This document shows, piece by piece, positions 36,602-41,152 of a stretch of DNA of 64,000 nt. Origin of the DNA: Candidatus Aquicultor sp. (GTDB lineage: Bacteria > Actinomycetota > Aquicultoria > Aquicultorales > Aquicultoraceae); contig DASXVE010000019.1 of the NCBI GenBank assembly GCA_036504445.1, positions 62,001 through 126,000 of the forward strand. The letters are read 5' to 3'. A program made the translations under genes and the position numbers. Positions within the stretch are counted from its first letter, which is position 1. Every line of letters starts with the position of its first letter. Under the pieces are notes generated by a model, which was not told where the DNA came from, did no database searches, and saw only the letters and a list, made by a program, of their open reading frames with translations.

Positions 36602-37099
36602 TTATTCCACACCTATGCCTTCCAATGACAGCAGTCTCTCTTTCCAGCCGCGCTTTCCGCTCCAACCGCCGACGCTGCCGTCGCTCTTTAACACCCGGTG
36701 GCACGGTACTACAATCGGAACCGGGTTTTTAGCCATCGCGTTGCCTACCGCTCGCGCCGCTTTTGGTCGACCGCACAGCGATGCCAGCCCGGCATATGTC
36801 GTCATCTTTCCATAAGGTATAGCTTTAAGGTTATTATACACGGTGCGCTCAAACTCAGTTGCATTGCCGTAATCAACCTGGTAAGCGAATTGCACCGGCT
36901 CTCCGGACAAGTATCTACCTATGGTTGAGATTAGGTCATCCCCTATTGTTTCATCGTAGGCACATGCACCGAACTTACGCTCAATTTCCTGTTCAAGCGC
37001 CTCCTCGGATTGCTGCGGAAAGATGAGCCCGGCAAGCCCGTTGTCGCTCATTATAATAGCGCCTGTTCCCCATTCGGTCGCATACGTATTAAACCACAT
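36602..37099 (-). CDS. ogt: Methylated-DNA--protein-cysteine methyltransferase
   Basis: Suicide DNA repair protein removing O6-alkyl groups from guanine. The acceptor cysteine is C133 in IVVPCHRVL. The helix-turn-helix part includes FERTVYNNLKAIPYGKMTTYAGLASLCGRPKAARAVGNAM with the arginine finger. 165 aa. Its ATG overlaps the uvrC stop codon (TAATG), so the two repair genes are translationally coupled. Confidence 0.95.
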   Translation of the reverse strand: MWFNTYATEWGTGAIIMSDNGLAGLIFPQQSEEALEQEIERKFGACAYDETIGDDLISTIGRYLSGEPVQFAYQVDYGNATEFERTVYNNLKAIPYGKMTTYAGLASLCGRPKAARAVGNAMAKNPVPIVVPCHRVLKSDGSVGGWSGKRGWKERLLSLEGIGVE

Positions 37100-38937
37100 T
37101 AGTTTAATCCCCCAGTTTGTTGAAAATGCCTATGCACGCGTTCGGCAATAATACTTGGTAGCCCCGGCACATTCTTTAGTTCTTCAAGGCTTGCATCGGC
37201 GATAGCGCCCGGTGAGCCAAAATGCTTGACCAGAAGGCGTTTCCTACCGTCACCAATGCCCGGAATCTTGTCGAGCGTCGATTCGACCATCGCCTTTCCG
37301 CGAAGCTTCCGGTGATATGTTACCGCGAATCTATGCGCTTCATCGCGTATCCTTTGCATGAGCTGCAATGCGTCCGAGCTCCTGTCGAGCTTAATCGACT
37401 CGGCTTCGCCCGGCACAAATATCTCTTCTTCCCGTTTTGCTAAACCCACAACCGGAATGTATTCAAAGCCGAGCTCCTGCATGACCGTAAGCGCCGCGGT
37501 AAGCTGCGGTTTGCCCCCGTCGACAATAACGAGGTCGGGCTCGCTGGCAAATGACGGGTCGAACTGGTCGTTATAATGACCGAACCGCCGTTGGATAACC
37601 TCTTGCATCATCGCAAAATCATTGATGCTTACATCATAGTCTATCTTAAATTTCCGGTAATCGCCCTTTGCCGCCCGGCCGTGCTCAAATACGACCATCG
37701 AACCTACTGAGTTGCTCCCTTGAATTGTCGATATATCAAAGCACTCGATTCGCTCCGGGGGCTCAACTAAGCCAAGTGCGTCAGCGAGCGATTGGAGCAC
37801 CCGTGCGGAAGCTTCCTTTTGCCATGAATGGCGAACTACCGACATTATTAGCGCGTGCTGTGCGTTAGCGGACGCCATATCGATAAGCTCGCGCTTGTCT
37901 CCCCGCTGCGGTACCTTAACCGCAACCTTTGTACCGCGCTGAGTGCTAAGCCATTTCTCGATAACATTCATCTCCTCTATCTCGAAAGGCAGAAGTACTT
38001 GTGACGGGATCGACGTTGCGCTCATATAGTGATGCTTCATAAATGCGCTAAGCACGTCTTCCCCGGTCTCGCCTTTATCCATGATAAAGTTCTCACTACC
38101 GATAAGCTTGCCGTCACGAACAATCGATAAGTTGGCACATCCCAAAGAGCCATCGAAGCTCAAACCGACGACGTCGAAATCTTCGCCCGTCTCACTAACA
38201 ATCCTCTGTTTCTGCAACACCAGCAAGGCTGCCTCAAGGCGGTCACGCACGCGGGCGGCACGTTCGAACTCAAGATTCTCCGAGGCCGCGCTCATTTCTT
38301 CTTCCAGCTCACTGATGACAATCTCGGGTTTGCCTTCCAGGAACAATTCCACTTCGCCTATCATTGCCCAGTACTCCTGTTTTGAGATTGCGTCAATACA
38401 AGGGCCTAAACACCGCTTGATATGGTAATTCAAACACGGTGTGCCGGTCGTCTTACCTGCTTTCGAGCGCTTACACGTGCGAAACGGAAATATCTTGCGA
38501 AGCGTATCAAACGTCTCCCGTACGGCACTTACGCTCGTGTACGGCCCGTAGTATTTTGTCCCCTTACGATGCGGTTCCCGGGTAATCATAACCCGCGGAT
38601 AATCATCTCTCCAGGTAATTGCGATATACGGGTAGCTCTTATCGTCGCGATACGACACGTTAAATGCGGGACGGTACTTCTTTATGAGATTGCACTCAAG
38701 CACCAGCGCTTCTAGCTCGCTCGTCGTTACATAAAACTCAAAATCGATAATCCGCTCGACGAGCGCTTTTGTCTTCGGCGTTAAGTCGCCGTTTTGAAAA
38801 TACGAACGCATGCGCGAGCGCAAGGATTTCGCTTTACCGACGTAAATCACCTTTTCGTCGGCATCTCGATAGATATATACGCCAGGCTCGGTCGGAACGC
38901 TTTTTAGTTGTTCAATCAGTCGTGCTTTATTATTCAT
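37099..38937 (-). CDS. uvrC: Excinuclease ABC subunit UvrC
   Basis: Nucleotide excision repair endonuclease making both incisions. GIY-YIG domain (PGVYIYRDADEKVIYVGKAKSLRSRMRSYF) at the N-terminus, UVR motif around EEEMSAASENLEFERAARVRDRLEAAL, RNase H-like domain (ERIECFDISTIQGSNSVGSMVVFE ... DLVIVDGGKPQL), and tandem helix-hairpin-helix at the end (LDKIPGIGDGRKRLLVKHFGS). 612 aa. The start codon overlaps the stop of the Rrf2-HAD gene (ATGA). Confidence 0.97.
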   Translation of the reverse strand: MNNKARLIEQLKSVPTEPGVYIYRDADEKVIYVGKAKSLRSRMRSYFQNGDLTPKTKALVERIIDFEFYVTTSELEALVLECNLIKKYRPAFNVSYRDDKSYPYIAITWRDDYPRVMITREPHRKGTKYYGPYTSVSAVRETFDTLRKIFPFRTCKRSKAGKTTGTPCLNYHIKRCLGPCIDAISKQEYWAMIGEVELFLEGKPEIVISELEEEMSAASENLEFERAARVRDRLEAALLVLQKQRIVSETGEDFDVVGLSFDGSLGCANLSIVRDGKLIGSENFIMDKGETGEDVLSAFMKHHYMSATSIPSQVLLPFEIEEMNVIEKWLSTQRGTKVAVKVPQRGDKRELIDMASANAQHALIMSVVRHSWQKEASARVLQSLADALGLVEPPERIECFDISTIQGSNSVGSMVVFEHGRAAKGDYRKFKIDYDVSINDFAMMQEVIQRRFGHYNDQFDPSFASEPDLVIVDGGKPQLTAALTVMQELGFEYIPVVGLAKREEEIFVPGEAESIKLDRSSDALQLMQRIRDEAHRFAVTYHRKLRGKAMVESTLDKIPGIGDGRKRLLVKHFGSPGAIADASLEELKNVPGLPSIIAERVHRHFQQTGGLN

Positions 38938-40049
38938 AGTAAACCTTGTTGCTTTAAATAATCCATTACCTCGTTAAAATTCTGGTATGGGATATACGGA
39001 ATCCCTTGTTCATCACAGTGCTCGCGCAGCCTGTGTTTTGCAAATACCAGATCCGCATGCTCGGCCGCACACCTGTCGGAGTTGCCATCCCCTATATAGA
39101 TCACGAAATCGGCGCCCTCGCGCTTGGCATCTATAACCGACTTTTTACAATTTGCACAACGATCGCATTCAGGATGCTGGTTGTTAAACTCGATTACCAT
39201 AACGCCGTTATCAAAACGCAGGTGGTTGGAGTGGTGCGCAAGATGTGACAACCCGTGGCGGTCCATTATGCGCTCGATGTAGTAGTCAAACCCGTCACTC
39301 ACTAAATATACCGGTATGCCCGCCTGCCGGCTCGCCTGTACAAACTCGGCGAAGTGCGGATCGATTCCTACGGCATCGACAAATTCTAAAATCTCACCCT
39401 CGCTCGCGTCTACGAGCGCCCAACACCGCCGGTAGAGCTCAACCATCGACATGGAACCGTTGTGATACTCGCGGTCGATATCCGCCCATCTTGTGCCCAG
39501 CCATTTGGTGAAAATGGAATCGGAAACATCTTTTGTGCTGATCGTACCGTCAAAATCGCAAAATATTATGATATTGCGCGGGACAGCGCCTCTCGTGCCG
39601 CGGCTCCCGTTTTTATCGGCAGATTCATCCTGCGGTGCCGGCTCCGAATTTTCAGCGGCACCGGCGACTAAATCAGCTAAACTCGTTTCGCTAAGTTTAG
39701 CGCTGATAAATTGCTGAATATCGCTCCATACCGGCTGGAGCGCACAATTCGTCGCAACGCAACTCGCCCCGTTCTCAAGACAATCACCTATTATAACGCT
39801 TTCATCAACGGCTTGCGCGATATCGAAAAGACTAATTTCGTGTGAGGCTCTAGCAAGTGAAAACCCGCCGCTCGGCCCCCGCCGGGACGTCAGAATCCCT
39901 GCTTTTACGAGATATTGTAGAATCTTCGCGACAAATGTGACGGAGATCTTCTGCGCTGTCGCTATCTCACCGATCTCACAGACGTACCCACGCTTCGCAA
40001 GGTAAAGCGTACTTAATATCGCGTATTCGAGCTTTTTTGTAACCTGCAT
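38934..40049 (-). CDS. Rrf2-family transcriptional regulator fused to a MtnX-like HAD phosphatase
   Basis: One uninterrupted 371-residue frame with two domains. Residues 1-130 are an Rrf2 winged helix (LEYAILSTLYLAKRG, ISVTFVAKILQYLVKAGIL, GGFSLARASHEISLFDIAQAV) with three cysteines at 90, 97 and 102, the IscR/NsrR-type Fe-S spacing region. Residues 131-157 are a Ser/Glu/Gly-rich linker. Residues 158-371 are a HAD-IB phosphatase: motif I FCDFDGTIS (D165, D167), S251 in VSDGFDYY, motif IV GDGNSD (320-325), plus CxxCxxC at C295, C298 and C301, as in MtnX-like proteins. I infer a redox- or Fe-S-sensing regulator linked to a phosphatase. TAGGAG precedes the ATG. It overlaps uvrC by 4 bp and has a palindromic operator upstream. 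I do not recognise this fusion as a described family. Confidence 0.85.
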   Translation of the reverse strand: MQVTKKLEYAILSTLYLAKRGYVCEIGEIATAQKISVTFVAKILQYLVKAGILTSRRGPSGGFSLARASHEISLFDIAQAVDESVIIGDCLENGASCVATNCALQPVWSDIQQFISAKLSETSLADLVAGAAENSEPAPQDESADKNGSRGTRGAVPRNIIIFCDFDGTISTKDVSDSIFTKWLGTRWADIDREYHNGSMSMVELYRRCWALVDASEGEILEFVDAVGIDPHFAEFVQASRQAGIPVYLVSDGFDYYIERIMDRHGLSHLAHHSNHLRFDNGVMVIEFNNQHPECDRCANCKKSVIDAKREGADFVIYIGDGNSDRCAAEHADLVFAKHRLREHCDEQGIPYIPYQNFNEVMDYLKQQGLL

Positions 40050-40109: not shown

Positions 40110-40142
40110 TTTAATTCAGGACTAAATTAGTCCTGAATTAAA
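40110..40142. promoter_or_regulatory. Perfect 33-bp palindrome, likely Rrf2 operator
   Basis: Left arm TTTAATTCAGGACTAA, single central A, right arm TTAGTCCTGAATTAAA: 16-bp perfect arms. The core GACTAAATTAGTC resembles half-sites known for IscR-like Rrf2 proteins. It starts 1 nt downstream of the -10 element of the Rrf2-HAD promoter, so binding should block transcription initiation (autorepression). Confidence 0.8.
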
Positions 40143-40143
40143 A

Positions 40144-40170
40144 CTTATACTTCGTCCAGGCGGATGTCAA
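40144..40170 (-). promoter_or_regulatory. Promoter of the Rrf2-HAD / uvrC / ogt operon
   Basis: Minus strand: consensus -35 TTGACA (40165-40170) and -10 TATAAG (40144-40149) with a short 15-nt spacer. The spacer is suboptimal, which may matter if the regulator also activates by distorting DNA. The palindrome follows immediately. Confidence 0.6.
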
Positions 40171-40207: not shown

Positions 40208-40327
40208 CAAAACGCTACTATCCTCCGTAGTAATGCCGCATAAAATATGCTACTGTATGGGTAATCAAGCCGAACTCATCGTTGTTGCGGCGCACTGCTT
40301 TGTAAAACAATGCATGGAGGAATAATC

Positions 40328-41152
40328 GTGATAAAGAAGCTGCTGGTCTTTTCCTTTGCACTGCTGATTGGCGCTATAGCTCTACAACCGCTGGCTTTTG
40401 CCGCCCCCGTACCGGATAAATTCTACCTCAGAGCTTGGCCTGAATATCAGACCGGGCAGGTATCGCTTCTGGAAACGGTAGTGTACCCGCAAACTACCCC
40501 CCTCCCTATAGAGGTAAAAATAGCAATGCCGGAAGGCGCAACTGTTAACTGGGCCGGCGAGATGCTGGGGCAGGTATCACAAGATATTCAAGCCCAACCC
40601 ACAGTCGTCCACAAAGGCACCTACGATGAAGTAACGTTTGCGCTTACCAAAAGCAGGACCGGACAGGTTGAAACCACGTGGTCGGCCCTCCAAATCAACG
40701 GAAACGACAGGGCGCTCAATTTTATCTGGACACAGCAGTACCCGGCCAACCAAACGATCTTTGAATTCCGCGAACCGTCACAGGCGTCCGATATCAAAAT
40801 GATGCCGCCTGCTGCCACGGTTAATACTTCGTCTGACGGCTCTAAATTTTATGAAACCGCCCCCATAAATCTACCCGTCGGTAAAACGCAAACCTATAGG
40901 GTAACGTATAGGCGGCCGGTAAAGGGCCCTTCAGAGAACGCGCAGCAGTCGCAACCAGGCTCTCAACAGCAATCGCCGCAAGGTGCACAACCAAGCGGTC
41001 CATCAACCGCTACAAGCATCCTGGTCATGCTTGTAGCCGGTCTCATCGTCTTTATGATTTATGCGCAGAAAAGCAACCAACGCAGATTAATGAGCGAGAT
41101 CGACGGCGATACCGATAATACTGCAAACGCTGCAGATACAGATGGTGCTTAG
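40328..41152 (+). CDS. Secreted, C-terminally membrane-anchored protein of unknown function
   Basis: 274 residues. I start at the GTG with GGAGG 7 nt upstream (the frame opens six codons earlier). A signal peptide (KKLLVFSFALLIGAIALQPLAFAAP) precedes a beta-rich domain of about 180 residues (YLRAWPEYQTGQVSLLETVVYPQ ... TQTYRVTYRRPV). A Gln/Ser/Pro-rich linker, one membrane helix (SILVMLVAGLIVFMIYA) and a short acidic cytoplasmic tail follow. The topology puts the beta domain outside the cell. No family recognised. It is transcribed away from the Rrf2-HAD gene and ends 8 nt from lepA, tail to tail. Confidence 0.7.
   Translation: MIKKLLVFSFALLIGAIALQPLAFAAPVPDKFYLRAWPEYQTGQVSLLETVVYPQTTPLPIEVKIAMPEGATVNWAGEMLGQVSQDIQAQPTVVHKGTYDEVTFALTKSRTGQVETTWSALQINGNDRALNFIWTQQYPANQTIFEFREPSQASDIKMMPPAATVNTSSDGSKFYETAPINLPVGKTQTYRVTYRRPVKGPSENAQQSQPGSQQQSPQGAQPSGPSTATSILVMLVAGLIVFMIYAQKSNQRRLMSEIDGDTDNTANAADTDGA

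Follow-up and report, generated by a model that had tools for sequence, protein, structure and literature searches.

A protein that joins an N-terminal winged helix of the Rrf2 type to an MtnX-like phosphatase domain of the HAD-IB subfamily is encoded by a single gene in several members of the family to which Candidatus Aquicultor sp. belongs. It is best read (probability about 0.6) as a phosphatase that acts as repressor of its own operon, in which uvrC is the downstream gene. The fusion itself, its conservation and synteny, its un-fused origin, the promoter and the dyad that follows it were computed from the genome sequences. Throughout, the window means the whole stretch of 64,000 nucleotides that was analysed, and G000 is the genome of Candidatus Aquicultor sp. 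from which it comes.

In the scheme proposed here, a housekeeping MtnX-like HAD-IB phosphatase that once stood alone before uvrC would have gained an N-terminal Rrf2 repressor domain in the ancestor of the family, and the fusion would since then have acted as its own repressor. A dimer, as expected from the Rrf2 family, would bind a GAC-N7-GTC operator that is predicted to overlap the start of transcription, immediately past the -10 box in the gene's own promoter, and its binding would limit transcription of the fusion and of the uvrC gene that follows. The HAD half, judged from its intact catalytic residues, would remain an active phosphatase. The signal, if there is one beyond the level of the protein, would not be a conserved Fe–S cluster and may be whether the HAD site is occupied; the HAD domain may gate DNA binding. 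DNA binding, repression, dimerisation, phosphatase activity and the coupling of the two halves are thus what we infer.

The Fusion Gene and Its Domains

The gene is a single frame on the minus strand of the window with an ATG start and a TGA stop (Table 1). The first-pass annotation, which gave no strand, had described one open frame joining an Rrf2 domain to a HAD domain, and both the frame and the positions that it assigned to C90, C97, C102, D165 and D167 were confirmed in the sequence. The N-terminal third belongs to the Rrf2 superfamily (PF02082, 109.8 bits against a cut-off of 30; TIGR00738, 112.2 against 73.3) and the C-terminal part, from residue 160, to the MtnX-like HAD-IB subfamily (TIGR01489, 111.6 bits against 81.55; PF12710, 66.4 against 27). 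HAD motifs I (DFDGT), II (S251), III (K302) and IV (GDGNSD) can all be located in G000 by alignment to the MtnX structure 2FEA. This is also the solved structure nearest to the HAD half, and those nearest to the Rrf2 half are proteins of the IscR and NsrR types. An AlphaFold2 model of the window protein alone had a mean pLDDT of 40 and was uninformative.

Two further features had been pointed out at the outset. The CxxCxxC motif of the HAD domain is present, but it is shared with stand-alone homologues and is not specific to the fusion. The Ser/Glu/Gly-rich linker exists in G000 but is peculiar to it: the linkers of the other four orthologues are shorter by about 20 residues and vary in length and sequence.

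The Rrf2–HAD fusion is real and not an assembly artefact. Four further assemblies carry the same fused frame, which excludes a frameshift or chimera and, with it, the alternative of two separate genes divided by a frameshift or stop in the linker. Separate translation of the HAD domain from an internal start was also considered and rejected, since the stretch from residue 111 to motif I has no ATG, GTG or TTG codon in either G000 or G010.

Table 1. Coordinates of the features discussed (window positions unless a locus is named)
Feature	Position	Strand	Basis or remark
uvrC	37099..38937	-	start overlaps the fusion stop by 4 bp (ATGA)
Rrf2–HAD fusion gene, 371 aa	38934..40049	-	Pfam and NCBIfam matches; one frame in four further orthologues
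MtnX-like HAD-IB phosphatase domain, residues 160–338, with D165/D167	39036..39572	-	TIGR01489 4.7e-32; nearest solved structure 2FEA
Linker, residues 130–159	39573..39662	-	Ser/Glu/Gly-rich in G000 only
Rrf2 winged-helix domain, residues 4–129	39663..40040	-	PF02082 1.4e-31
C90/C97/C102 segment (would-be Fe–S loop)	39744..39782	-	sequence
33-bp palindrome, predicted operator	40110..40142	.	16-bp perfect arms, 1-bp centre; core GAC-N7-GTC at 40120–40132
Predicted -10 element TATAAG	40144..40149	-	same five-orthologue pattern
Predicted -35 element TTGACA	40165..40170	-	TTGACA-(15/16)-TATAAG upstream of 5/5 orthologues
raiA RNA	L159 256-508; L160 293-539; L161 3516-3768; L162 3497-3758		RF03072

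Distribution and Origin

The fusion occurs as one frame in five of the 11 genomes of the family (G000, G006, G007, G008 and G010, of genera g1, g4 and g6), hereafter the five orthologues. In its carriers it sits between lepA and uvrC, and wherever the contig reaches the gene order is rpsT–murJ–lepA–fusion–uvrC–ogt–rapZ–yvcK–whiA–gapA (the contig of G008 stops just upstream of the fusion and that of G010 just past ogt). uvrC lies downstream of the fusion in all five, with a 4-bp overlap in G000 and, in the others, a gap that ranges from tens of bases to about 110 bp, and is probably co-transcribed with it. Among the family genomes the fusion gene is absent from genera g2, g3 and g5. In g2, lepA and uvrC are directly adjacent; in G009 (g5) and G005 (g3) the genes upstream of uvrC encode S-layer-type secreted proteins.

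The state that preceded the fusion is likely represented by G011, a member of a sister family in the same order, in which an un-fused HAD gene stands directly before uvrC and behind pabB/pabC-like genes. In the uvrC tree, with moderate support, g6 groups with g2 and g4 with g5. Genera with the fusion therefore occur in both deep clades of the family, which points to a single gain in its ancestor and to losses in g2, g3 and g5. The fused Rrf2 domains also group together in a single clade, separate from the remaining Rrf2 groups in the family. On these trees the fusion probably arose once, in the ancestor of the family, and has been lost several times since.

Across 396 genomes of the phylum, no instance of the two-domain architecture was found beyond these five. 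An MtnX-like HAD domain is present at E <= 1e-20 in 43 of the 396 and, the five fusions aside, no Rrf2 domain was detected in those HAD frames or in the surrounding stretch fetched with them. A search for related loci across genome contigs matched only a Planctomycete Rrf2 protein; 344 plasmid records matched the query in part, none covering 80% of it; and literature searches returned no description of an Rrf2–HAD or Rrf2–enzyme fusion. The claim of the first-pass annotation that no described family has this domain order accordingly stands within the libraries and literature searched. To that extent the pairing of Rrf2 with HAD is new, while fusions of a regulator with an enzyme are of an already known kind.

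The Winged Helix and Its Cysteines

The winged helix proper (residues 1–80) of G000 is 57–60% identical to that of the orthologues. Identity drops to 27–36% in the segment that bears the cysteines (residues 81–130), the least conserved part of the protein. For the closest pair (G006–G008), dN/dS is about 0.1 in each domain. All three of C90, C97 and C102 are kept in G000 and G010, only the first in G007 and G008, and none in G006; the 23 stand-alone Rrf2 proteins that the tree includes from the family all retain the three. The three conserved cysteines that distinguish Fe–S regulators of the IscR/NsrR/RirA type are hence a feature of two of the five orthologues, and the window protein also misses the corresponding equivalog cut-offs (IscR, 70.8 against 207.55; NsrR, 40.2 against 182; RirA, 81 against 193).

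At the position of the recognition helix that matches Glu43 of IscR, all five orthologues have Ala, and IscR with the E43A change can bind type 1 sites in its cluster-free form (PMC5411485). The IscR of R. sphaeroides ligates its cluster through one cysteine only (PMC4618611), so that a cluster is still conceivable in G007 and G008. Judged from these residues, the fusion is probably not an Fe–S sensor. Such sensing is not a property common to the fusion family, although G000 itself could bind a cluster, and the earlier suggestion of Fe–S or redox sensing as the general mechanism is not upheld. Of the residues whose conservation it had proposed to check, D165 and D167 proved invariant while the cysteines did not.

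The HAD Domain: Activity and Substrate

The HAD domain of G000 is 58–62% identical to those of the orthologues. D165, D167, S251, K302 and D325 are invariant in nine homologues, stand-alone ones included, and C295, C298, C301 and C327 are invariant as well, also in the stand-alone homologues. With its catalytic residues intact, the HAD half would be an active phosphatase. This activity is not certain, as D321 of motif IV is replaced by Asn (GNG, not GDG) in four orthologues and in the stand-alone protein of G011, G000 having Asp.

Two candidate functions were considered. The canonical MtnX role is disfavoured because no RuBisCO-like MtnW was found with PF00016 in the 11 family genomes, a control with B. 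subtilis being positive; MtnW is the enolase that supplies the substrate of MtnX in methionine salvage. The scores against MtnX equivalog models are also below cut-off (119.6 bits against 292, and 107.9 against 303.2). Phosphoserine phosphatase SerB was likewise set aside (34.4 against 144.15 bits); no genome of the family exceeds the serB cut-off, and no clear pattern emerged.

The stand-alone HAD homologues of G037, G052 and G066 (loci L085, L086 and L090) adjoin genes for a class III aminotransferase and an F420-ligase-like protein and dnaX–recR. This recurring neighborhood may serve as a hint to the substrate.

Promoter and Predicted Operator

Upstream of all five fusion genes, TTGACA is followed after 15–16 bp by TATAAG and, 9–14 bp further on, by GAC-N7-GTC, the chance of which is about 0.004–0.014 per 45-bp stretch. 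A consensus promoter scan misses this promoter because of its 15–16 bp spacer and of a -10 element that ends in G. The middle of the dyad changes symmetrically (GACT...AGTC in G000 and G007, GACA...TGTC in G006 and G008), as would be expected of a dyad under selection. Outside G000 the dyads are short and singly no better than shuffled sequence, so the case for an operator rests on their position and on their repetition across species that are themselves related. RisR, an Rrf2 repressor of M. xanthus, has its DNase footprint on a GAC-N7-GTC site that is flanked by AT-rich sequence and covers the -10 region (PMC9973013). Within each of G006–G008, the fuller motif is matched exactly between genes at the fusion's own promoter and nowhere else; the second exact copy of G008 and most one-mismatch copies in these genomes lie inside coding frames. 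The first-pass annotation had raised the possibility that the phosphatase's product feeds back on repression, and the conserved operator-like dyad at the gene's own promoter is in part consistent with it.

The intergenic region that contains the palindrome is shared with a divergent gene (40310-41152, plus strand) for a 280-aa protein that looks secreted and membrane-anchored. This protein has no Pfam match and no homologue at the same place in the four orthologous loci.

G000 contains three further copies of the palindrome, making four near-identical ones in 2.57 Mb. One is situated between leuA and leuC, and none of its orthologous regions has a palindrome. Another lies between ahcY and an aldolase–mtnA pair. 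The third is a near-copy (L098 5599-5615; G000:C34:221598) in the gap where lipA and a UPF0145 gene converge; a run rich in T comes after it, and it looks more like a bidirectional terminator than an operator. A link to methionine salvage through the copy 5' of aldolase–mtnA was considered and rejected, as the aldolase occurs in G000 only and mtnA is present with or without the fusion (12/12 genomes). Since the leuC copy is not conserved either, no wider regulon is claimed.

Some observations on these genes stand apart from the fusion. G000 carries a PNP–ahcY–class II aldolase–mtnA cluster (L099 3108-7196) that resembles a DHAP shunt for salvaging methylthioadenosine or 5-deoxyadenosine; within the family, its class II aldolase occurs in G000 only. 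The mtnA genes of G007, G008, G005, G006 and G009 (L159, L160, L161, L162 and L164) have an in-frame TGA precisely at the conserved catalytic cysteine, where HCNAGALAT becomes H-stop-NAGALAT; G000, G010, g2 and G011 have Cys. This sequence pattern suggests a methylthioribose-1-phosphate isomerase that contains selenocysteine, and no Rfam SECIS family was matched. Close to mtnA, four of the relatives have a raiA RNA that scores 161–164 bits, over the gathering threshold (Table 1).

Alternative Explanations and Significance

The main alternatives concern the nature of the signal and that of the palindrome. A sensor–enzyme whose DNA binding, and perhaps also its phosphatase activity, is governed by a cluster on C90/C97/C102 is unlikely: the three cysteines of G000 and G010, a palindrome core similar to the sites of RisR and other Rrf2 repressors that carry a cluster, and two further palindrome copies of G000 near the Fe–S enzyme genes leuC and lipA would fit it, but three of the five orthologues have lost cysteines and yet keep the helix, the HAD domain, the promoter and the dyad. 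Moreover, residues 81–130 are the part that has diverged most while the family's other Rrf2 groups all keep their cysteines, the copy near lipA lies downstream of that gene and not at its promoter, and the copy near leuC has no counterpart in relatives. We also think it improbable that the palindrome is a transcript hairpin, a terminator or a small dispersed repeat instead of an operator. It would form a strong RNA hairpin (z -6.2), a terminator scan reports it as a plus-strand hit, and one of its four near-identical copies in G000 lies between convergent genes, a position that would hardly suit an operator; against this, no plus-strand gene ends at the palindrome, four copies are few for 2.57 Mb, and the dyad of the other four genomes is too short for a strong hairpin and nevertheless stays after the -10 box.

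The remaining alternatives differ in what the HAD half does for the repressor. Replacement of the motif IV Asp by Asn in four orthologues, together with the fact that other Rrf2 proteins take their signal at the C-terminal part that has decayed here, would suit a HAD half retained purely as a ligand-binding domain, its enzyme function gone; this is quite unlikely given the invariance of D165, D167, S251, K302 and D325, the same Asn in the stand-alone enzyme of G011 and the Asp of G000. That the protein is a plain level-sensing autorepressor joined to an ordinary phosphatase, with no information passing between the domains, deserves more credence, though short of even odds. It is a special case of the self-repressing phosphatase favored here, from which it differs only in denying the coupling, so that the confidence given to the two overlaps. 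In genomes of genus g4 the operator occurs essentially only at the gene's own promoter, the linkers differ in length and sequence, and genera without the fusion gene live without it, all of which agrees with uncoupled domains; the arrangement in a single chain would then be left unexplained. A bolder and rather doubtful extension is a new class of metabolite-gated repressors in which the HAD domain reads a phosphorylated substrate and directly controls the winged helix, an enzyme having replaced the ancestral Fe–S input. If it were true, the decay of the cysteines from genus to genus would be a record of one sensor replacing another.

These genomes offer a clean natural series (separate enzyme, fused with the cluster cysteines, fused without them, gene lost) in which to ask how an Fe–S repressor fold could be adapted to a different input. 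Since self-repression may respond to something that the enzyme half handles, the gene is also a pointer to the substrate of a widespread branch of MtnX-like phosphatases.

Comparison with Known Systems

The fusion shares a winged helix with a glycine-rich wing with IscR, NsrR, CymR and the RisR of M. xanthus, from all of which it differs in carrying a 210-residue HAD domain, in its unconserved cluster cysteines and in scoring below every NCBIfam Rrf2 equivalog cut-off. It would resemble RisR further in a predicted autoregulatory dyad of the GAC-N7-GTC type at the -10 region (PMC9973013), and S. coelicolor NsrR in the recognition-helix residues T/S..A-K (PMC5411485). The IscR of R. sphaeroides (PMC4618611) is likewise an Rrf2 repressor with fewer than three conserved cysteines; it has no enzyme domain, and a cluster has been shown there, whereas the fusion is known from sequence and in G006 is devoid of even the first cysteine. 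With MtnX and the MtnX-like HAD-IB proteins (TIGR01489, 2FEA) the whole domain, the catalytic motifs and the CxxCxxCK motif are held in common; from MtnX itself the fusion is set apart by its score (119.6 against the equivalog cut-off of 292), by the absence of MtnW from the 11 family genomes and by the attached repressor.

The closest parallels in organization are BirA, NadR and PutA, each of which combines in one chain an enzyme and a repressor of its own gene or pathway, with the DNA-binding domain at the N-terminus, and in which the identity of the gating metabolite is known. The fusion described here would follow the same plan with DNA-binding and enzyme families that differ from theirs.
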